The position numbers and the translations under genes were made by a program. Of a DNA stretch of 64,000 bases, positions 17,168 through 55,763 are shown in pieces (the stretch's first letter is position 1; every line of letters starts with the position of its first letter). The stretch lies in contig NZ_CP012410.1 in assembly GCF_001274535.1 (NCBI RefSeq), positions 1,399,126 to 1,463,125 of the forward strand. Reading direction: 5' to 3'. The notes below the pieces were generated by a model. That model was not told where the DNA came from. It did not search any database and saw only the letters and a list, made by a program, of their open reading frames with translations. Source of the DNA: Leptotrichia sp. oral taxon 212 (GTDB lineage Bacteria > Fusobacteriota > Fusobacteriia > Fusobacteriales > Leptotrichiaceae).

Positions 17168-18538
17168 TTATTTATCATCTTTCTTAAAACAATCCATGTA
17201 AAAGTCATCTCTTCCAAATATCTTTCTTAAATTTTCATAAGATAGATATCCCAGTGTTGTTGCTCCAATTTTATCCCTGATTTCATCCAGAGTCAAGTAA
17301 TTTCCAATTAGATGTGCCTCAGGATTTACATTCACTCCGAAAAAATCTTCCTTAATAACTATAGGGGATGCTGCCCTGAAATGTACTTCTTTTGCTCCTG
17401 CTTCATATAGCATTTTTACTAATTTTTTTGATGTAGTTCCACGTACGATTGAATCATCTACAACTACCACTCTTTTCCCATCCAGCAGGCTTTTTATCGG
17501 ATTCAATTTTACTTTTACTGCCTGTTCCCTGAGTTCCTGTATTGGAGTGATAAATGTTCTTCCAATATACTTATTTTTTACTAAAGCCGGTCTATATGGA
17601 ATTCCGCTTTCCTGTGCATATCCTATGGCTGCAGGAACTCCTGAATCAGGAACTCCTATAACAATATCCGCCTCTATAGGATTTTGTCTATACAGATATT
17701 TCCCTGTTTCATGTCTAAACCCATAAACATCTATTCCATCTATTACACTGTCAGGTCTTGCAAAATAAATATATTCAAATGCACTTACCTGCTTTTTCTC
17801 CTTGTTGTTATATTTTATTGATTCAATTCCTTTTTCATCGATTATTACAATTTCTCCAGGTTCTATTTCCCTTATAAATTCCGCTCCCATTGCATCCAGT
17901 GCACAGGTTTCTGATGCCAGCACTAGGATCTCTTTACCTATTTTTCCAAGGGAAAGAGGTCTCAATCCTCTAGGATCTCTCACTCCCACAAGTTTATCAT
18001 TCAGGATCATTGCAAGGGCAAATCCGCCTTTAAGTTTATTCACTGTATTTAAGGCACATTCTTTTACTCCATGCACTGCATTCTTACCAATCAGTTTTAA
18101 AATAACTTCCGTATCAATTGATGTATGGAAAAGATCACCTTCTCCAAGTAGTTCCTGTTTCAATTCCTTATAATTACTCAAATCCCCATTATGTACAATA
18201 GAAACTTTTCCCAATGAAGTTTCCCCTTCCAGAGGCTGACAATTTCTCATTGATGAATAACCTTCTCTTCCATATCTTACATGGCCTATTAGAATATTTC
18301 CTATATAGCTGTTTAAATCTTCCAGAGAAAATACATCAGCTACAAGTCCAGGCTTTTTTATAGTTCTATGTCTCACTTTATTTTCAGTAACAGTGTCACA
18401 TATTGTAAATCCTGCACTTTGCTGACCTCTATGTTGTAATGCAAACATACCGTAGTAGGCAAGTCCACCTAAATCTTTTCTTACTTCCTTTGAATGTATT
18501 GCCAAAATTCCCATTTTCTTTTTTTCCTCCATTTTCAT
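17168..18538 (-). CDS. Degenerate PurF paralogue lacking the glutaminase Cys
   Basis: This 456-aa protein aligns along its whole length with the PurF encoded just upstream but has lost key residues. The nucleophile Cys13 of PurF is Met9 here (KKKMGILAIHS against EEECGVIAFHS). The RYATTG glutamine-site motif is RYGREG (R88-G93). The Fe-S cysteines 263, 409 and 474 are Ser252, Asp398 and Tyr447; only Cys450 remains. The phosphoribosyltransferase half is intact, including VIGVPDSGVPAAIGYA and the PRPP loop VVVVDDSIVRGTTS (357-370). GGAGG lies upstream of Met9, so translation may begin at 18514, putting the initiator Met where the Cys should be. It may be an ammonia-dependent transferase or a regulatory subunit; both are inference. 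Confidence 0.85.
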   Translation of the reverse strand: MKMEEKKKMGILAIHSKEVRKDLGGLAYYGMFALQHRGQQSAGFTICDTVTENKVRHRTIKKPGLVADVFSLEDLNSYIGNILIGHVRYGREGYSSMRNCQPLEGETSLGKVSIVHNGDLSNYKELKQELLGEGDLFHTSIDTEVILKLIGKNAVHGVKECALNTVNKLKGGFALAMILNDKLVGVRDPRGLRPLSLGKIGKEILVLASETCALDAMGAEFIREIEPGEIVIIDEKGIESIKYNNKEKKQVSAFEYIYFARPDSVIDGIDVYGFRHETGKYLYRQNPIEADIVIGVPDSGVPAAIGYAQESGIPYRPALVKNKYIGRTFITPIQELREQAVKVKLNPIKSLLDGKRVVVVDDSIVRGTTSKKLVKMLYEAGAKEVHFRAASPIVIKEDFFGVNVNPEAHLIGNYLTLDEIRDKIGATTLGYLSYENLRKIFGRDDFYMDCFKKDDK

Positions 18539-18619: not shown

Positions 18620-20083
18620 TTAATAGTCCACTATAGGATACTTTCCTGAAAAACATCCCACACAGAAATCATTTTTACAAGTATGGTAACTGTTTTCATT
18701 CATATCAGATCTGATACTTTTTTCCCTTAAAATTTTCAATAAATTTTCTAGTGACAGATATTCCAATGTATTAGCTCCAATCTCATGGCAAATTTCTTCA
18801 GTAGTCATGTAACTTGCCACCAGTTCCTTTTTATTGGCAATATCTACACCAAAATAGCATTCGCTCAGCACTTTCGGCGAGGCAGACCTGAAATGTACTT
18901 CCTTTGCTCCTGCATCACGCATCATTTTTATAAGTTTTTTCGATGTAGTTCCCCTCACCAGTGAGTCATCCACTACAACTACTCTTTTTCCTTCTATCAT
19001 TTTTCTTATGGGATTCAGTTTTACCTTTACTGCCTGTTCTCTAAGTTCCTGTGTTGGATAAATAAAGCTTCTTCCAATATATTTATTTTTTACCAGTGCC
19101 TTTGCAAAAGGAATTCCGCTTGCTTCAGCATAGCCTATTGCCGCAGGGATACCTGAATCTGGGACTCCTATTACAATATCAGCTTCTACAGGATGCTGTT
19201 CATACAGATATCTTCCTGCATCATGCCTTACCTGGTACACATCAATTCCGTTTATTATACTGTCTGGTCTTGCAAAGTATACATATTCAAAGGCACATGA
19301 AGCTTTTCCCTCATTTTTTCTATTATTTTCCAGAAGTTCTAAATATTTTATTGATTCAATTCCATTTTCATCAATAATAATCATTTCTCCGGCATTTATA
19401 TCCCTGATATATTTTGCATTTACAGTGTCCAGTGCCACCGTTTCAGAAGCAAGTACATAAGTTCCGTCTTTTCTCTGTCCCATACATAATGGTCTTATTC
19501 CTCTCGGATCTCTGATTCCAATCAGTTTATCATTTATAATTATTACTAATGCAAAAGCTCCTTCAATGACATCAAGAGTTTTTAACAGGGCTTCCCTCAT
19601 TCCGTATTTTGCATTTCTACCTAACAGCTTTAAAATTACTTCCGTATCAGAAGTTGCGTGAAAGGTAATACCATCCTTCATCAGTTTCTCTTTTAATTTT
19701 TCAATTTTTATGAGATTCCCGTTATGTGCAAGAGAAATATTACCCATTCCGGAATCTCCGCTAAATGGCTGTGCATTATCAACAGTAACTATTCCGGTTG
19801 TTGCATATCTTACATGACCTATCAGGATATTTCCTTTATATTTTAACAGTTCGTTTATTGAAAACACTTCAGAAACTAATCCCATATCCTTCAATGTCTT
19901 ATGTCTTATCTTATTTTCTGTAATACTGTCACAAATCGTCATTCCTGCACATTCCTGACCCCTATGTTGTAAAGCCTGCATTCCAATATATGCCAGTGAT
20001 GTCAGATTTTCACGTATTTTATTTGAATGGAAGGCGATCACTCCACATTCTTCCTCCATTTTATCTGACTTTTCTAAAAACAT
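18620..20083 (-). CDS. purF: Amidophosphoribosyltransferase
   Basis: PurF makes 5-phosphoribosylamine from PRPP and glutamine, the committed step of purine synthesis. This 487-aa copy appears fully functional. It has a 12-residue propeptide followed by the nucleophile Cys13 (EEECGVIAFHS), the glutaminase motifs R92-YATTG, N121-G122 and D146, and the PRPP loop VVVVDDSLVRGTTS (368-381). All four Fe-S ligands of the Bacillus-type enzyme are present (C263, C409, C474, C477). GGAG lies nine bases before the ATG. It is followed after 81 nt by a degenerate paralogue. Confidence 0.97.
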   Translation of the reverse strand: MFLEKSDKMEEECGVIAFHSNKIRENLTSLAYIGMQALQHRGQECAGMTICDSITENKIRHKTLKDMGLVSEVFSINELLKYKGNILIGHVRYATTGIVTVDNAQPFSGDSGMGNISLAHNGNLIKIEKLKEKLMKDGITFHATSDTEVILKLLGRNAKYGMREALLKTLDVIEGAFALVIIINDKLIGIRDPRGIRPLCMGQRKDGTYVLASETVALDTVNAKYIRDINAGEMIIIDENGIESIKYLELLENNRKNEGKASCAFEYVYFARPDSIINGIDVYQVRHDAGRYLYEQHPVEADIVIGVPDSGIPAAIGYAEASGIPFAKALVKNKYIGRSFIYPTQELREQAVKVKLNPIRKMIEGKRVVVVDDSLVRGTTSKKLIKMMRDAGAKEVHFRSASPKVLSECYFGVDIANKKELVASYMTTEEICHEIGANTLEYLSLENLLKILREKSIRSDMNENSYHTCKNDFCVGCFSGKYPIVDY

Positions 20084-21334: not shown

Positions 21335-21677
21335 TTATTTTTCCTCCTTAATAGTTAATTTTATTATCGTATCTCCTATCTCAAGATTTTGCCGCTTTAA
21401 AATAAAATTATTTTCATTTACTTTTTCATAATTATTATTTTCTATGTCAGATATTATTTCATTCAATAATTTTAATTCCTTTTGATATTCACCAACAACT
21501 AAAAAATACATTTTTTTATCTATTGATACTTCTGAAGTATTAAAGCTATATTTTTTTTCTTTTATTTCCTCTAGTATTCTTATGATTTCACTTTGAATTT
21601 TTTTCAGTTTTTTGACAATTTGATAAAAATAATAACAACAAAATAACTAAAAGTAGAAATTTATTTATTTTTTTCAC
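21335..21677 (-). pseudogene. Small lipoprotein ORF interrupted by a one-base frameshift
   Basis: A GTG at 21677 with AAAGGAAG upstream begins a lipoprotein signal peptide (MKKINKFLLLVILLLLFLSNC), but the frame stops nine codons after the lipobox Cys. A second frame takes over in the A-runs just after the Cys (A6 and A7 tracts). It continues as KKLKKIQSEIIRILEEIKEKKY to a stop at 21335, which overlaps the purE ribosome site. Removing one A joins the two into a 113-aa lipoprotein. The interval is 343 nt, one more than a multiple of three. Possible explanations are decay, a sequencing error, or phase variation by slippage. I do not recognise a family. Confidence 0.65.
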
Positions 21678-21775
21678 ATCAAACTTCCTTTACAAAAAAC
21701 AAATTTATTCAAGGTACGAAGATAGAAATAATATAAATCAAAATTCTATCTCTGTAATATAAAATTTTTTTTTTC

Positions 21776-24700
21776 TTATTTGAAAAATTTTACTCCATTT
21801 CTGAATATATTCTGATCCTTGTTTCCATATATATTTTTATATAAATTTTTTCCAGTTCTTTCAGAATGTGCCATCTTTCCAAATATTCTTCCTTTATGAG
21901 CAAGCATTCCCTCTATTGCATAATATGAACCGTTAGGGTTAAATTTCGGATCCATGCTTGGCTTTCCATCAAAATCTACATATTTTGTAGCTATCTGATT
22001 ATTTTTATACAGTTTTTTATATTCTTCCTCAGTAATGACAACTCTTCCTTCTCCGTGTGACATCGGAATGGCGTGTATATCTTCTTCATCCATTCCCATC
22101 AGCCATGGAGAATTGTTTGAAATAATTTTAGTCATTACTATTTTCGACATATGCTTATTTATATTGTTAAATGTCAATGTAGGAGAATCTTCGTTCAGTC
22201 CCCTTACTTCGCCATATGGTAACAGACCTGATTTTATGAGTGCCTGAAATCCGTTACATATTCCAAGTATCAAACCATCACGTTTCAGAAGATTATTTAT
22301 TGCTTTCTTAATTTTTTCGTTTTTCAGCACTGCAACCATGAATTTTGCTGATCCATCAGGTTCATCTCCGGCACTGAATCCTCCTGGAAGCATTAATATC
22401 TGAGAGTTCTCTATTTCCTTGACAAAATTATCTATGGAATCCAGTATATTACTCTGAGAAAGATTATTAAACACACCTATCTTAGTGATTCCACCTTCCC
22501 TGTTAAAAGTCCTCTCAAGGTCATACTCACAGTTAGTACCTGGAAATACAGGTATAAATACTCTTGGTTTTGCTATACTGTTGGAAAAACTGCTTATTAC
22601 ATTTTCTCTTTCAATAAGTTCTATTTTTTTGTATTTAACACTACTACAGTGAGTCATTATGCAACTATTCTCAACTTCCTTTCTTGTAGGAAAGATTTTT
22701 TCCAGAGGTTTTTCCCATTCTTCTATCAGTTCATCCAGAGTAATTTCAAATTTATTATCAATTACTATTTTTCCTTCTGAAACTACATTTCCAAGAAGAA
22801 CAGCATTTTCATAGTCAAGATTATAAGGAGATTCCAGTATAAATGTTCCATATCCTGCCTTAAACCATTCATTTTCCCCTATTATTCCATCTGACTTTAT
22901 ATCTAAACCTAACTTATTTCCAAAAGTCATTTTTGCAACTGCTTCAGATATACCACCATTTTTCACTGCTGATGCCGATACAATCTTTTTATTTTTAATA
23001 TTTTCAGTTATAAAATCAAAATTTTTCTTTAATTCCTTTAAGTCAGGTAAATCATTCCTATCATAGGCTGTCCTTACAAGATAAATATTGTTTCCCGCCT
23101 TCTTAAATTCAGATGAAATTACATTTTCAGCAGTTGTCATACTCACCGCAAATGAAACCAGTGTAGGCGGTACAGAAATATCGTTGAAAGTTCCGCTCAT
23201 GGAATCCTTCCCCCCTATTGAAGGCAGTCCAAATTCCTTCTGGATATGAAATGCTCCTAACAGTGCCGATAAAGGTCTTCCCCATTTTTTTGAATCCTTA
23301 CCTAATCTTTCAAAATATTCCTGAAAAGTAAATCTTATATTTTTATAATCTCCACCAGATGCCACTATTTTAGTCATAGATTCTATTACAGCGTATGCTC
23401 CTCCATGGAATGTTGACTGTTTTGCCACAAAAGGATTGTATCCGTAACCTACCATTGAAGCCACATCTGTTTCGGCATTTTCAACAGAAACTTTCTGAAC
23501 AGACACTTCTGAAGGTGTCAACTGATATTTTCCTCCATAAGGCATCAGTACAGTTGTCGAACCGATTGTTGAATCAAATGTTTCCATAAGTCCTCTTTGT
23601 GAGCATACATTCAGATCCTTAAGATTGTTAATAAATTTTTCCTTAAAGTCTGCTCCGTCAATTTTTCTTTCCAGATTAAGTTTGGCTGTTTTTTCTATTT
23701 CTATGTCTATATTTGATTTTGCACCGTTTGTATTTAGAAAATCCCTTGAAATATCAGCTATAACTTCATTTCTGTATTTCATTACAAGTCTTCCTGTATC
23801 ATTTACTTCAGCCACTTTATATGCTTCAAGATTTTCCTCTTCAGCAAGTTTTATAAATTTTTCTACATTTTCCTCTCTCACAACTACTGCCATTCTTTCC
23901 TGTGATTCTGAAATAGCAAGTTCAGTACCTGTAAGACCGACATATTTTACTCTTACCTTGTCCAGATCTATTTCAAGTCCGTCAGCAAGTTCCCCGATTG
24001 CTACGGAAACTCCTCCTGCACCGAAATCATTACATTTTTTTATAAGCTTTGTAACTTCCTTGTTTCTGAACAGTCTCTGAATTTTTCTCTCAGTTACCGC
24101 ATTTCCCTTCTGAACTTCGGCACTGCATTTTTCTGATGATTCTGTCGTATGTTCCTTCGAGGATCCTGTTGCTCCTCCAATACCGTCTCTTCCTGTTCTT
24201 CCTCCTAAAAGAATAACTACATCACCTTTTTCAGGCTTTTCCCTGATGATATTTTCAGCAGGTGCAGCTCCCACTACAAGTCCCAGTTCCAATCTCTTAG
24301 CCTTGTATCCTTCATCATATATTTCATTTACATATGTCGTTGCCAGCCCTATCTGATTACCATATGAGGAATATCCGTGTGCAGCCTTCTGAGTAATTAC
24401 CCTCTGAGGGAGTTTTCCTTCAAGCGTATCGTTCAGTTTTTCGGTTGGATCTCCCGAACCACTTATTCTGACTGCCTGATATACAAATGTTCTTCCTGAT
24501 AACGGATCCCTTATAGCACCACCGATACATGTAGATGCTCCTCCAAATGGTTCTATTTCTGTAGGATGATTATGTGTCTCATTTTTAAACTGTAAAATCC
24601 ATTTTTCTATTTTCCCTTTCACGGGCACATCAATATATATTGAACATGCATTTATTTCATCTGAAACTTCCAGATCAGGAAGTTCTCCTCTTTTTCTCTG

Positions 24701-25564
24701 TTCCTTTCCAAATACTGTTGCCAGATCCATCAGTGTCATCGGTTTTGCAGAAATTTTTTCTCCATGTACATATTCCCTGCTTTTTACATATTCCTTCAAT
24801 GTCTTTTCTATTATATCCCTGTACACTTCATTTTCTATCTTTACATCATCTATTATCGTTTCAAATGTAGTATGTCTGCAATGATCAGACCAGTATGTGT
24901 CGAGAACTCTTATTTCAGTTTCAGTAGGATTTCTTTTTTCCTCATTTTTAAAATATTCCTGAATAAAAAGCATATCATCTGCAGTCATTGCAAGTTCAAG
25001 GCTTTTTCTCATTTCTTCTATCTCTTCTGAAGTCTTATTTATAAAGTTTTCATAAACCGGAACTTTTTCCATATTTTCCTGCTCAGGATTTTCTTCAAGT
25101 ATATCTAAATTTTTCTCTCTCATTTCAACTTCATTTATATAATATTTTTTTATTTTACTCAGCTCTTCAGTAGTCACATTTCCATAAAGAATTATCAGCT
25201 TTCCGCTTTTCACATTGAAATTTTCGTTATCTGCCAGAAGATTTATACATTGAACTGCAGAATCAGCCCTCTGATCATACTGTCCAGGTATAAATTCAAC
25301 TGCAAAATGTATATTTTCCCTATTTTCCACGACAGAAAATACTTCTTCCAATGAATTATAAACTCTGTCCACATTTACTTCGGAAAAAACAATTTTTTCC
25401 ATTTTTTTCAGATCTTCCTTGCTTAAATTAAAAACATCATAGATATTTAAGATTCTCAGGAAATCCAGTGATTCAATCCCTACATTTTCCTTTAAATCAT
25501 TCATCAGATTCTGTGTTTCTACTCTAAAATCTTCTCTTTTTTCCACAAAGATTCTATAATTCAT
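21776..25564 (-). CDS. purL: Phosphoribosylformylglycinamidine synthase (large single-chain form)
   Basis: This 1,262-aa enzyme converts FGAR plus glutamine to FGAM. It is the large single-polypeptide type, with an N-terminal PurS-like part, two AIRS-like halves (FKNETHNHPTEIEPFGGASTC, GGRTGRDGIGGATGSS, GGKDSMSGTF) and a C-terminal class I glutaminase (FPGTNCEYDLERTF, nucleophile in GICNGFQALI, H1233/E1235 in MAHSERTG). AGGAGG precedes the ATG at 25564. It is the first structural gene of the pur operon and lies behind a guanine-type riboswitch, a leader ORF and two terminators. Confidence 0.97.
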   Translation of the reverse strand: MNYRIFVEKREDFRVETQNLMNDLKENVGIESLDFLRILNIYDVFNLSKEDLKKMEKIVFSEVNVDRVYNSLEEVFSVVENRENIHFAVEFIPGQYDQRADSAVQCINLLADNENFNVKSGKLIILYGNVTTEELSKIKKYYINEVEMREKNLDILEENPEQENMEKVPVYENFINKTSEEIEEMRKSLELAMTADDMLFIQEYFKNEEKRNPTETEIRVLDTYWSDHCRHTTFETIIDDVKIENEVYRDIIEKTLKEYVKSREYVHGEKISAKPMTLMDLATVFGKEQRKRGELPDLEVSDEINACSIYIDVPVKGKIEKWILQFKNETHNHPTEIEPFGGASTCIGGAIRDPLSGRTFVYQAVRISGSGDPTEKLNDTLEGKLPQRVITQKAAHGYSSYGNQIGLATTYVNEIYDEGYKAKRLELGLVVGAAPAENIIREKPEKGDVVILLGGRTGRDGIGGATGSSKEHTTESSEKCSAEVQKGNAVTERKIQRLFRNKEVTKLIKKCNDFGAGGVSVAIGELADGLEIDLDKVRVKYVGLTGTELAISESQERMAVVVREENVEKFIKLAEEENLEAYKVAEVNDTGRLVMKYRNEVIADISRDFLNTNGAKSNIDIEIEKTAKLNLERKIDGADFKEKFINNLKDLNVCSQRGLMETFDSTIGSTTVLMPYGGKYQLTPSEVSVQKVSVENAETDVASMVGYGYNPFVAKQSTFHGGAYAVIESMTKIVASGGDYKNIRFTFQEYFERLGKDSKKWGRPLSALLGAFHIQKEFGLPSIGGKDSMSGTFNDISVPPTLVSFAVSMTTAENVISSEFKKAGNNIYLVRTAYDRNDLPDLKELKKNFDFITENIKNKKIVSASAVKNGGISEAVAKMTFGNKLGLDIKSDGIIGENEWFKAGYGTFILESPYNLDYENAVLLGNVVSEGKIVIDNKFEITLDELIEEWEKPLEKIFPTRKEVENSCIMTHCSSVKYKKIELIERENVISSFSNSIAKPRVFIPVFPGTNCEYDLERTFNREGGITKIGVFNNLSQSNILDSIDNFVKEIENSQILMLPGGFSAGDEPDGSAKFMVAVLKNEKIKKAINNLLKRDGLILGICNGFQALIKSGLLPYGEVRGLNEDSPTLTFNNINKHMSKIVMTKIISNNSPWLMGMDEEDIHAIPMSHGEGRVVITEEEYKKLYKNNQIATKYVDFDGKPSMDPKFNPNGSYYAIEGMLAHKGRIFGKMAHSERTGKNLYKNIYGNKDQNIFRNGVKFFK

Positions 25565-25612: not shown

Positions 25613-25645
25613 TAAAAAAATCTAAGTAAGGGGACACTTAGATTT
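25613..25645 (-). terminator. Second leader terminator before purL
   Basis: A perfect 10-bp stem, AAATCTAAGT/ACTTAGATTT (25645-25636 with 25627-25618), with loop GTCCCCTT, followed on the minus strand by a T-run. The stop codon of the upstream leader ORF (25640-25638) lies inside the 5' arm, so a ribosome terminating there would prevent the hairpin from forming. Confidence 0.85.
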
Positions 25646-25763
25646 TGGGTGTATTTAAATTTTTCTCTGAAAAAATATATTTTTTGGGCATAAAAAACTG
25701 AGAAGACAAAAAATTATGTCTAAAAATCGTTATTTTTGAAATGATAAATAGAAAATTTTTCAT
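25638..25763 (-). CDS. 41-codon leader ORF of the pur operon
   Basis: This short ORF (start MKNFLFIISKITIFRH, end NTPKI) has one of the strongest ribosome sites in the window (GAAGGAGGAATA before the ATG at 25763). It lies between the riboswitch terminator and a second terminator and ends inside the 5' arm of the latter. It is rich in Phe, Lys, Ile and Asn codons, with no obvious run of a single regulatory amino acid. Its first third is enclosed by a potential long-range RNA helix (25783-25790 with 25701-25708, extended by 25775-25780 with 25713-25718). I infer a cis-acting leader peptide coupling translation to antitermination. A genuine small protein is the alternative. Confidence 0.6.
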   Translation of the reverse strand: MKNFLFIISKITIFRHNFLSSQFFMPKKYIFSEKNLNTPKI

Positions 25764-25793
25764 TATTCCTCCTTCATAATTCTGTCTTCTACA

Positions 25794-25843
25794 ACAAAAA
25801 ATCTGATTTCATTACACTACAAAAGCGAAATAATAATCAGATT
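25794..25843 (-). terminator. Riboswitch expression-platform terminator
   Basis: Arms AATCTGATT (25843-25835) and AATCAGATT (25808-25800) are followed by a T-run. Part of the 5' side (25833-25823, TTATTTCGCTT) can instead pair with the 3' strand of aptamer helix P1 and the bases just downstream (25866-25856, AAGTGAAATAA) with one G-U pair, giving an antiterminator. Confidence 0.85.
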
Positions 25844-25862
25844 ACAATTTCCTATTTATTTC

Positions 25863-25927
25863 ACTTATAGTTAGCAATTTATGGTTGCCTGTAGAAACAA
25901 TTCGCCTTATTCGAAAAATATATAAGT
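25863..25927 (-). promoter_or_regulatory. Purine riboswitch aptamer, guanine-type
   Basis: On the minus strand P1 is ACTTATA/TATAAGT. P2 is TTCG/CGAA with loop AATAAGG, J2/3 is the invariant GTTTCTAC, and P3 is GCAA/TTGC with loop CCATAAA, giving the GG/CC loop-loop contact. J3/1 is AACTAT, whose C at the specificity position predicts guanine or hypoxanthine rather than adenine. Ligand binding should stabilise P1, release the terminator at 25794-25843 and switch purL and the rest of the operon off. Confidence 0.92.
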
Positions 25928-25950
25928 TTTGTTTTATTTTTATATTATAA

Positions 25951-25979
25951 AGTATATCAGATATTAAGTTATTTTTCAA
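25951..25979 (-). promoter_or_regulatory. Promoter of the pur operon
   Basis: TTGAAA at 25979-25974, exactly 17 bp, then TATACT at 25956-25951, placing the start about 15-20 nt before the aptamer. Confidence 0.85.
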
Positions 25980-25991
25980 GGATTAATCTGA

Positions 25992-27929
25992 TTAAATCTC
26001 CTTCTGCTTTATTAATCCTGTCTTATAGGATATAAGCAGCTTCTTCAGATCATCTATCTGCTTCTGAAGTTCTTTTCCTATGTCAGTGTCTTTTACCTTA
26101 GTTATTTCACGTATTTCGTCAAAAACTACCGTTGAAGAAAGAATATCCGCACCTTCTTTTATTGCCTTTTCCTGAGATTCAAAAGGTGCAAGGGAAATAA
26201 TCTTTATCCCATAAGAATTGTATACTAATGTATATCCGGCTATTCCTGTTGTTTTACGGTATGCCTTTGAAAATCCTCCATCAATCATGAAAAGCTTTCC
26301 ATCGGCTTTTACAGGTGATTCCCCTTCCTTTACTTTCACAGGAACATGTCCATTTATTATATGCGAATTTTCCGGATTTAGTCCAAATTCCCTTAAAATC
26401 ATGACACATGTTTCCTTTTCATTAATAAACGTATAATAAGGATTCTTATTTTCCTTATGTATTTTTTTATCATCTATAAAATATCTTTCAAATGTTCTCA
26501 TTATATCTTTTCCAAATAATGGGGAATTTTTTCCGCACCACAGATACCATACAAAATCCCTGTTCCGTTTATCCTTTTCATTATTTTCCCTGTTAAAAAA
26601 GCTTTCCCTTATTATGGCTTCTATCTTATCAAAATAGGACTTTCCTTTGTAGCTTATTCCATCTATGTTTACTTCAACAAGTTCTCCTTCACTGTCAAGA
26701 GGAATGCACCCGTGATAGAGCAGATTGGAGTTACATTTTAAGTACATCGAACCTTTATTCAGCAGAAATTTCAGATGTCTCTGGAGTTTTTCACTGTTCA
26801 TAAAGGAATTTTTCAGTTTATTCAGAAGAACAACTTCTTCTTTAGTAAGTTCCAAAGGATTGTCAGGATTTACAGTAGGAAAATGAGTGTCATTCAGCTG
26901 ATATTCCTTTCCTCCTATAGTAACTGTTCCCTTGTGATAATCTATATTTTTCAGCAGTTCCTTGTCTTCCATTTCAAATTGGGGATTACGTTCTGAAAAT
27001 ATCCCTTCAACTTTAAACTGTATTATGGAAATAGCCTTATGCATCTGTGCTATCAGATCGTTATCCACTCCCTCCTTTGGACGGAAATTTCTGCATGGGT
27101 CCTTTCCATAATATTTCATTGCAAAAGTTGCAAGAGGAAGAAGATTTATTCCATATGCTTCTTCAAGAATATCATGATTGTTATATCTTGAACATATTCT
27201 TATTACATTTGCGATGCATGCCTTATTTCCAATTCCTGCTCCAATCCACAGCAGATCATGGTTTCCCCACTGTATATCAACATTATGATACTCCTGCAGA
27301 CAATCCATTATCAAATGAGGGGCAGGACCTCTGTCATAAATATCGCCAACAACGTGTAATCTGTCAATTGCAAGTCGCCGTATCAGCTCCCCCATTGCCT
27401 TCATAAAATCTTTTGTATACTTTATAGATATTATTGTATCTATAATCGCATCTACATAGTCTCTCTTATTCTCTTCTTCATTTCTTTCATACAGAAGTTC
27501 CTGTATAATATATTCAAAATCTTTAGGCATTGCTTTTCTCACTTTTGAACGAGTATATTTTGTCGATGCATGTTTACAAACTTTTACAAGTCTATATATA
27601 TTTTTTTTTGACCATTCTTCGATATTTCTGTTTTTCTTTTCCTCAAGGTTATATTTAGCTTCAGGATAATAAATTAGTGTGGCCAGTTCCTTCTTTTCAA
27701 CTTCATCTAATGTTTCTCCAAATATATCTTCTATTTTCTGTCTTATGCTTCCCGAACCGTTTCTAAGCACATGTGTAAAAGCCTCGTATTCACCGTGTAT
27801 ATCCGAAAGAAAATGCTCCGTTCCTTTTGGAAGATTAAGTATTGCTTCTAGATTAATAATCTCTGTAGAAGTTTCTGCGATGTTCCTAAAATTTTTAGAT
27901 AGTAATTCCAAATATTTTAATTCCGACAT
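25992..27929 (-). CDS. fbp: Fructose-1,6-bisphosphatase, class III
   Basis: This 645-aa enzyme dephosphorylates fructose 1,6-bisphosphate for gluconeogenesis. It has the Firmicute-type class III metallophosphatase pattern: SDIHGEYEAF, VVGDIYDRGPAPH, WGNHDLLWIGA and NGHVPVK, with metal-binding Asp and His residues. The length, about 640-670, is normal for the class. The start is set at the ATG at 27929 because GAGGTGG precedes it; a GTG four codons upstream overlaps that site. It ends 13 bp before the pur promoter and is a separate transcription unit. It is opposed in metabolism by pfkA at 53051-54013. Confidence 0.95.
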   Translation of the reverse strand: MSELKYLELLSKNFRNIAETSTEIINLEAILNLPKGTEHFLSDIHGEYEAFTHVLRNGSGSIRQKIEDIFGETLDEVEKKELATLIYYPEAKYNLEEKKNRNIEEWSKKNIYRLVKVCKHASTKYTRSKVRKAMPKDFEYIIQELLYERNEEENKRDYVDAIIDTIISIKYTKDFMKAMGELIRRLAIDRLHVVGDIYDRGPAPHLIMDCLQEYHNVDIQWGNHDLLWIGAGIGNKACIANVIRICSRYNNHDILEEAYGINLLPLATFAMKYYGKDPCRNFRPKEGVDNDLIAQMHKAISIIQFKVEGIFSERNPQFEMEDKELLKNIDYHKGTVTIGGKEYQLNDTHFPTVNPDNPLELTKEEVVLLNKLKNSFMNSEKLQRHLKFLLNKGSMYLKCNSNLLYHGCIPLDSEGELVEVNIDGISYKGKSYFDKIEAIIRESFFNRENNEKDKRNRDFVWYLWCGKNSPLFGKDIMRTFERYFIDDKKIHKENKNPYYTFINEKETCVMILREFGLNPENSHIINGHVPVKVKEGESPVKADGKLFMIDGGFSKAYRKTTGIAGYTLVYNSYGIKIISLAPFESQEKAIKEGADILSSTVVFDEIREITKVKDTDIGKELQKQIDDLKKLLISYKTGLIKQKEI

Positions 27930-50609: not shown

Positions 50610-50620
50610 AATTACAAATT

Positions 50621-50721
50621 CTTATCTTCGCATCTTTTATGCCGGGAATTGGCACCTTATACTTTCATATAGGTTGCCGGATACTAATAACGGGCCCGTC
50701 CCTCGTATCTCTCTTGATAAG
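50621..50721 (-). promoter_or_regulatory. SAM-I (S-box) riboswitch
   Basis: On the minus strand the aptamer has P1 CTTATC/GATAAG, the conserved AAGAGAG, GAGGGA, the GGCCCG and CCGGCAACC blocks, AAGGTGCCAATTCC and a closing AAGATAAG. These are the invariant S-box segments in order. It lies in front of metK. Confidence 0.97.
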
Positions 50722-50743
50722 TTGCATATTTAACTGTAAACAC

Positions 50744-55492: not shown

Positions 55493-55763
55493 TTTGTCAT
55501 ACATCAGGCTCTCGAAAGAATTTTACCACCTGTTTCTTACTTTAAAAACTCAAAAACAGCTACCCTGTAAACCTAGAGAAATCAACTTAGTGCTGCTTCG
55601 TTCCCGCCCTGACACGGTTCGCTGACTCTCTACAATACAGGACTATTTTCTCAACATCTTTAAAGTAAGGCGTTGATACTAAAATTTCCCTCAAGCCTGA
55701 CATCACCTCTACTAAAGCGGATTGTAGATACAGGGCACCGCTAACTCCCCGGCTAGTATGACA
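55493..55763 (-). ncRNA. ffs: Signal recognition particle RNA, large (Alu-containing) type
   Basis: About 270 nt. The 5' part carries the Alu-domain block (GGGGAGTTAGCGGTGCCCTGTA then ATCCGCT) matching Bacillus scRNA. The S-domain carries CCGTGTCAGG and GAAGCAGC around a GGAA tetraloop whose closing pairs are swapped but still complementary (GCG/CGA against the usual TCC/GGA). The 5' TTTTGTCATAC pairs with the 3' GTATGACAAAA. It targets membrane and secreted proteins through Ffh. End positions are approximate. Confidence 0.92.

Follow-up and report, generated by a model that had tools for sequence, protein, structure and literature searches.

In the guanine riboswitch stage of purine leaders, transcription ends at a terminator when guanine or hypoxanthine is high. 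Leaders of the xpt-pbuX type (RF00167) build this stage from an aptamer, an antiterminator and a terminator, usually with the gene directly after them. A guanine aptamer can also share its leader with a second control element ahead of purine genes, as in the tandem guanine-PRPP riboswitches (PMC5912903), and in Mycobacterium tuberculosis the B12 riboswitch leaders of metE and ppe2 continue into a uORF whose translation modulates the gene behind it (PMC11260477). Other leaders depend on the ribosome. In the UTP-sensitive pyrBI leader of Escherichia coli (pyrL), the terminator overlaps the end of a translated leader ORF, lying inside the 135-bp leader gene, and the hairpin is kept from forming when a ribosome trails the polymerase at short distance (PMC4824070, PMC5021804). 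The mgtCBR leader of Salmonella has two control elements in series, mgtM responding to ATP and mgtP to proline, and the mgtM peptide is not conserved (PMC3641672).

Work in E. coli has defined what a ribosome does to an intrinsic terminator close to a stop codon. With a stop codon 5 bp before the terminator, termination falls from about 90% to less than 10%, an effect that is abolished once translation is removed, and a terminator within 100 bp of the ORF start often escapes repression, the ribosome not having caught up unless the polymerase pauses; in amino-acid attenuators, leader gene and terminator are separated by more than 20 bp (PMC4824070).

The purL leader in the window

The window, that is the whole stretch of 64,000 nucleotides analyzed here, carries on its minus strand a purine operon with the gene order purL-purE-purC-purF-purF-purM-purN-purH. 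The first gene, purL (FGAM synthase, TIGR01857, NCBIfam 1832 bits), occupies positions 21776 to 25564 (minus strand), and the downstream genes purE, purC, purF, purF, purM, purN and purH, assigned by NCBIfam equivalogs, lie between 13983 and 21332 (minus strand). The two adjacent purF genes (17168-18538 and 18620-20083, minus strand) both score above the NCBIfam purF cut-off and are an unusual duplication within an operon, and the interval between purL and purE (21336-21680, minus strand) contains a short lipoprotein-like ORF and an apparent gene remnant. Elsewhere in the window there are a SAM riboswitch (50619-50723, minus strand) and a bacterial large SRP RNA (55497-55761, minus strand). 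The upstream neighbor of the purL leader is fbp, coding for a class-3 fructose-1,6-bisphosphatase, with its 3' end at 25992.

A consensus scan found a promoter-like sequence, TTGAAA-17-TATACT with TG before the -10 element, at 25951-25979 (minus strand); the assignment is a match to consensus only, and this promoter would make the aptamer the 5' end of the transcript. The purine riboswitch aptamer itself (25848-25945, minus strand) matches the covariance model RF00167 with 58 bits, against a gathering score of 37 (E 2e-7). Direct reading of the sequence (AACUAUAAG) gives AACUA for J3/1, hence a C at the ligand-pairing position, and the riboswitch is therefore predicted to be of the guanine type. 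Its expression platform is the terminator T1 (25796-25843, minus strand), which has a U-tract, folds with -14.1 kcal/mol and consists of a 9-bp stem (25843-25835 with 25808-25800) plus a 5-bp inner extension. A first-pass annotation of this DNA had described a well-formed antiterminator, and we recovered it as an 11-bp helix with one G-U pair and -9.8 kcal/mol (25866-25856 with 25833-25823, minus strand). In silico folds show that it overlaps the 3' strand of P1 and is mutually exclusive with both P1 and T1.

Downstream of the riboswitch there is a second stage, consisting of a leader ORF (uORF) and an intrinsic terminator (T2). The uORF (25638-25763, minus strand) has 41 codons and is preceded by the Shine-Dalgarno sequence (SD) AAGGAGG, in agreement with the very strong ribosome site that had been claimed for it. 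Its stop codon, TAA at 25640-25638, does lie, as also stated in the first-pass annotation, within the 5' arm of a perfect 10-bp terminator: T2 (25613-25645, minus strand) has a U-tract, a folding energy of -11.5 kcal/mol and a stem of 10 perfect bp, or 11 if one wobble is counted. The start of purL follows 53 nt past T2. A cmscan search of the leaders detected no Rfam riboswitch family besides the purine riboswitch, and hence no second aptamer downstream; the second stage matched no RNA family known to Rfam, the weak microRNA and sRNA matches below gathering being taken as chance.

Recurrence and conservation of the second stage

The uORF-T2 layout, either with the riboswitch or as the second step alone, was found in 46 related genomes of 13 genera. 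The window's genus is represented by the window's genome alone, and the comparison within its family (f1) covered the purL leaders of 33 genomes in both orientations. The overlap between uORF and T2 stands before purL in 20 f1 genomes, 13 of them without riboswitch. The order aptamer-uORF-T2-purL occurs in G000, G002, G003, G004, G018, G020 and G021; within genus g6, 13 genomes lack the riboswitch and retain the uORF and T2, and in genus g9 there is a riboswitch and no uORF. Of the 19 f1 leaders measured by script, 16 have the uORF stop within T2 (5' arm, loop or 3' arm), two have it 6 nt past T2 and one 9 nt before it; in three genomes that form part of a single g6 clade the uORF reads through T2 entirely, as it does in L302 from the second family described below. 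The 20th f1 genome, G012, was read directly, outside the script-measured set, and in its leader (L188, G012:C1:372138-374700) an insertion of about 1.6 kb, which may be a mobile element, separates T2 from purL.

In a second family (f2), the layout precedes purL in five genomes (G047, G048, G049, G069 and G070; genera g14 and g17) and purE in 21 genomes (genera g12, g13, g16 and g22), where it is the pur gene that comes first after the riboswitch. The ORFs and T2 stems of f2 show barely any relation, or none, to those of f1, and the stops, reached in different frames, nearly always fall inside T2, in its loop or one of its arms, and otherwise just past it. T2 without a uORF was seen in none of the purL and purE leaders inspected. 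The second stage is missing in the riboswitch genera g9, g18, g19, g20, g24 and g25, and also in G034, where purE lies directly behind one terminator; the second stage is therefore dispensable. The T2 loops of L166, L173, L261, L302, L169 and L301 contain the recurrent motif GGG-(A/T)(T/A)AGTGT(A/G)-CCC or ATAGTTGTAACC, independently of the reading frame. Among 40 sampled loci of the order with other genes behind purine riboswitches we found one further case only, in G085 (L277, G085:C2), where the riboswitch is of the guanine type and a 47-codon uORF, which runs into a terminator at its end, separates it from a non-purine gene, glutamine synthetase III (PF12437). Outside the order, the same kind of scan was applied to 75 purL leaders and found the layout in none.

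When the uORF of the window is shuffled by dinucleotides, 10% of the shuffles retain an open frame as far as the stem; taken alone it is unremarkable against chance, whereas the recurrence is not. For the purL leaders the probability of a frame open to the stem is 0.01-0.10 each (dinucleotide shuffles of the ORF body), and multiplying them for 12 representatives gives 5e-18, a value that assumes independence and is indicative only. The corresponding probabilities for the purE leaders are 0.02-0.19 (mononucleotide shuffles), with open-frame counts that are partly conditioned, as the uORF starts of this set were picked by a rule demanding overlap with T2. The other two frames are open in 0/43 and 2/43 leaders, a control partly conditioned by the choice of ORF. 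Within 1.26 Mb, half of the window's genome, the purL leader alone brings together, in the manner of a leader, a short ORF behind an SD, a terminator that overlaps it and a gene downstream; the three other matches are rpmF, the apparent 3' end of another gene and an unidentified 27-codon ORF.

What has been kept in these leaders is not the peptide. The pN/pS of the uORF is 0.76 in g6, versus 0.12 for the start of purL, and about 0.66 in g13 (codons 2-22), versus 0.14 for purE. The C-terminal part of the g6 uORF differs among subclades as though frame-shifted, and codons 16-27 are conserved including their synonymous sites (pS 0.06, versus 0.26 in the first 15 codons); in g13 not one synonymous change occurs in the final 11 codons, the part of the uORF that overlaps T2 and the sequence leading up to it. 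The conserved core forms a local hairpin, AGACA..TGTCT in the window (25698-25722, minus strand; family consensus AGACAA..TTGTCTACTTTG), and AGACAA..TTGTCT followed by ACTTTG is present in nearly all f1 leaders tested; we consider it a candidate RNA polymerase pause element. Exact matches to the core nucleotide pattern across the family are all at the purL leader. The T2 stems vary yet keep their pairing: A-U, G-U and G-C all occur at a single position, and between genera AATCT..AGATT alternates with AGTCT..AGACT. At the protein level, a core [RG]QIxxLS[TA]L[LF] recurs in f1, degenerate in the window (RHNFLSSQFF) and not found in G004 or in the f2 leaders, and the uORF peptides have no Pfam match. 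A conserved bioactive peptide was rejected on the pN/pS of 0.76, the unrelated peptides of different genera and the lack of Pfam matches. It is thus the translated reach and the hairpins that are retained, while the peptide drifts. Conservation in relatives of the overlap between ORF end and terminator had been left to comparison by the first-pass annotation; the overlap is kept across the 13 genera, and the sequence of the ORF is not.

Probable translation-coupled termination and its alternatives

This conservation favors the arrangement proposed from the single sequence, serial control of the pur operon by a guanine riboswitch and a translation-coupled terminator. We put at about 0.72 the probability that ribosomes reaching the end of the uORF block T2, in the manner of pyrBI and in series with the guanine riboswitch; uORF translation very probably decides readthrough into the operon. 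In the first stage, high guanine or hypoxanthine would cause termination at T1. A polymerase that passes T1 would transcribe the short ORF with its strong ribosome site, and a ribosome following closely would cover the 5' arm of T2 when it reaches the ORF end, so that the hairpin would not form and purL would be transcribed. If the uORF were untranslated, or the ribosome lagged or stalled upstream, T2 would form and transcription would stop. The decisive event would be translation reaching T2, the peptide itself being of little weight. Because the uORF stop is in or beside T2, the leaders are clearly placed on the side of pyrBI and not on that of the amino-acid attenuators. The distance from uORF start to T2 stem is 53-153 nt across leaders, and the model consequently needs a polymerase pause, for which the core hairpin is the candidate: in the window's family it may hold RNA polymerase and let the ribosome catch up. 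Several observations weigh against the model: the uORFs that read right through T2 (in the three g6 genomes and L302), the riboswitch genera and G034 that do without a second stage, and the six g6 genomes with a long interval between T2 and purL. The sequences show the anatomy and its conservation directly, and from these we infer uORF translation, T2 blocking and polymerase pausing alike.

The leader of G018 (L025, reverse complement about 1280-1500) shows how closely the two stages may be joined. T1 is missing there, and the 3' strand of the aptamer P1 abuts the uORF SD, which is itself unpaired in P1. Since T1 is absent and the P1 strand adjoins the SD, the riboswitch could act only through the uORF, and the effect of guanine would have to run via uORF translation and T2, a reading based on adjacency. 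A wider proposal, which we regard as speculative, is an order-wide dual sensor in which the guanine riboswitch reads the nucleobase, the pyrBI-like uORF-terminator reads nucleotide supply or translation by way of ribosome-polymerase coupling, and in some lineages (G018) the riboswitch works solely through control of uORF translation, so that the uORF would relay the aptamer's state to the terminator.

Translation-coupled termination could take the narrower form of an attenuator that senses nucleotides, as pyrBI and mgtM do, in which low NTPs would slow the polymerase, the ribosome would catch up, T2 would be blocked and purL would be made. The anatomy matches that of pyrBI, with its terminator inside the leader gene (PMC4824070), and mgtM offers a precedent for an ATP signal read via conserved adenines by a leader with an unconserved peptide (PMC3641672). 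The uORFs of g13 are mostly A-rich (0.54-0.60 in eight, versus 0.35-0.38 in purE), and the uORF in the window has four T5 runs, a number reached by 0.12% of the coding windows of its genome; the adenines of g13 bring mgtM to mind, and the T runs pyrBI. However, no tract is common to all leaders, the uORF in the window is not A-rich, and the f1 and g16 ORFs lean to T where those of g13 lean to A. We hold this version as a tentative possibility. Sensing of ATP through A-tracts, as a general rule, was unsupported in the window and clear mainly in g13, and was set aside.

The uORF could also be constitutively translated and T2 nearly always silent, serving as a quality gate that ends only transcripts uncoupled from ribosomes. 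The strong SD of most leaders and the general biology of coupling (PMC5021804) are consistent with such a role, but its repeated upkeep in essentially one pathway is easier to explain by a signal related to that pathway, which makes the gate unlikely.

Slightly less probable again is a ribosome-stalling leader peptide, with a stall on a charged tRNA or a small molecule deciding whether T2 forms. The recurrence of the peptide core in f1 would fit, but this core is kept at synonymous sites too, which points to a nucleotide signal, and it is absent from G004 and f2 and degenerate in the window. Moreover, there is no run of one regulatory codon, the folds show no antiterminator competing with T2, and the spacing of more than 20 bp between leader gene and terminator in amino-acid attenuators (PMC4824070) is not that of these leaders. 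An attenuator of the trp or his type does not match these leaders, whose peptides have no run of regulatory codons and whose stop is in or beside T2.

We consider it very unlikely that the uORF stands on its own as a gene for a small protein, closed by an ordinary terminator, purL being expressed from a separate promoter or by leakage. Terminators overlapping gene ends do exist, as at rpmF in the same genome, and in six g6 genomes the gap between T2 and purL is 430-795 nt, with room for another promoter. However, the constraint on the protein is weak, peptides are unrelated between genera and none has a Pfam match. In 34 of 43 leaders, moreover, the gap from the end of T2 to the gene start is 16-65 nt, which leaves little space for another promoter, and the promoter-like matches in these gaps reach at most 9/12, except for L298 with 10. 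Other promoter-like sites were observed in the long T2-purL intervals of the g6 subclade comprising L007, L008, L009, L012, L013 and L015.

The weakest alternative, highly improbable in our view, is that a long-range helix acts as the real switch by sequestering the uORF ribosome site: the helix claimed by the first-pass annotation (25783-25790 with 25701-25708) exists in the MFE fold and is longer than claimed, with 16 bp and a 2-nt bulge (25790-25775 with 25718-25701, minus strand) and -18.9 kcal/mol for the segment, but it is marginal versus shuffles (about 0.02), has no counterpart in relatives, the nine other leaders tested pairing over 5-10 bp at about shuffle level, and would not outlast the passage of the first ribosome to translate the uORF. 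As a conserved switch it was rejected, and on this sequence comparison it should be dropped as a general feature of these leaders.

Comparison with known systems

In the open-access literature, to which the search was limited (subscription papers being outside its scope), we found no guanine riboswitch followed by a terminator overlapping a uORF. The layered control that had been called unusual is so in the wider literature searched but is common within this bacterial order. If the preferred reading, ribosome-dependent blocking of T2 behind a guanine riboswitch, is true, a riboswitch and a ribosome-coupled attenuator would act serially on one operon, with a second stage kept in 13 genera while its peptide drifts, and transcription-translation coupling in Fusobacteriales-like bacteria would become experimentally accessible. 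The 46 leaders would provide a natural set in which to study what the silencing of an intrinsic terminator demands of a translating ribosome; they would bear as well on how a cell combines nucleobase signals with nucleotide or translation signals.

The first stage of these leaders resembles the xpt-pbuX type, from which they differ in the second terminator and the ORF that intervene before the gene. They share with the guanine-PRPP tandem a further control element behind the guanine aptamer, which in the tandem is another aptamer and here is an ORF with a terminator, no aptamer being found by cmscan. The ppe2 leader likewise places a translated uORF after a riboswitch, but it works by translational coupling at a stop/start overlap rather than by way of an intrinsic terminator, and it responds to B12, not to purines. 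The serial organization recalls mgtCBR, as does the unconserved peptide, although there both stages are ORFs with alternative stem-loops, high ATP raises expression and the genes belong to another class. The overlap of terminator and ORF end is that of pyrBI, which is by contrast a pyrimidine operon without an upstream riboswitch and has a U-tract pause that finds no consistent counterpart here. Judging from these sequence comparisons, the two-stage purine leader is real and conserved; the kinds of attenuator that it joins are known, and their combination is, in the literature searched, new for purine genes.
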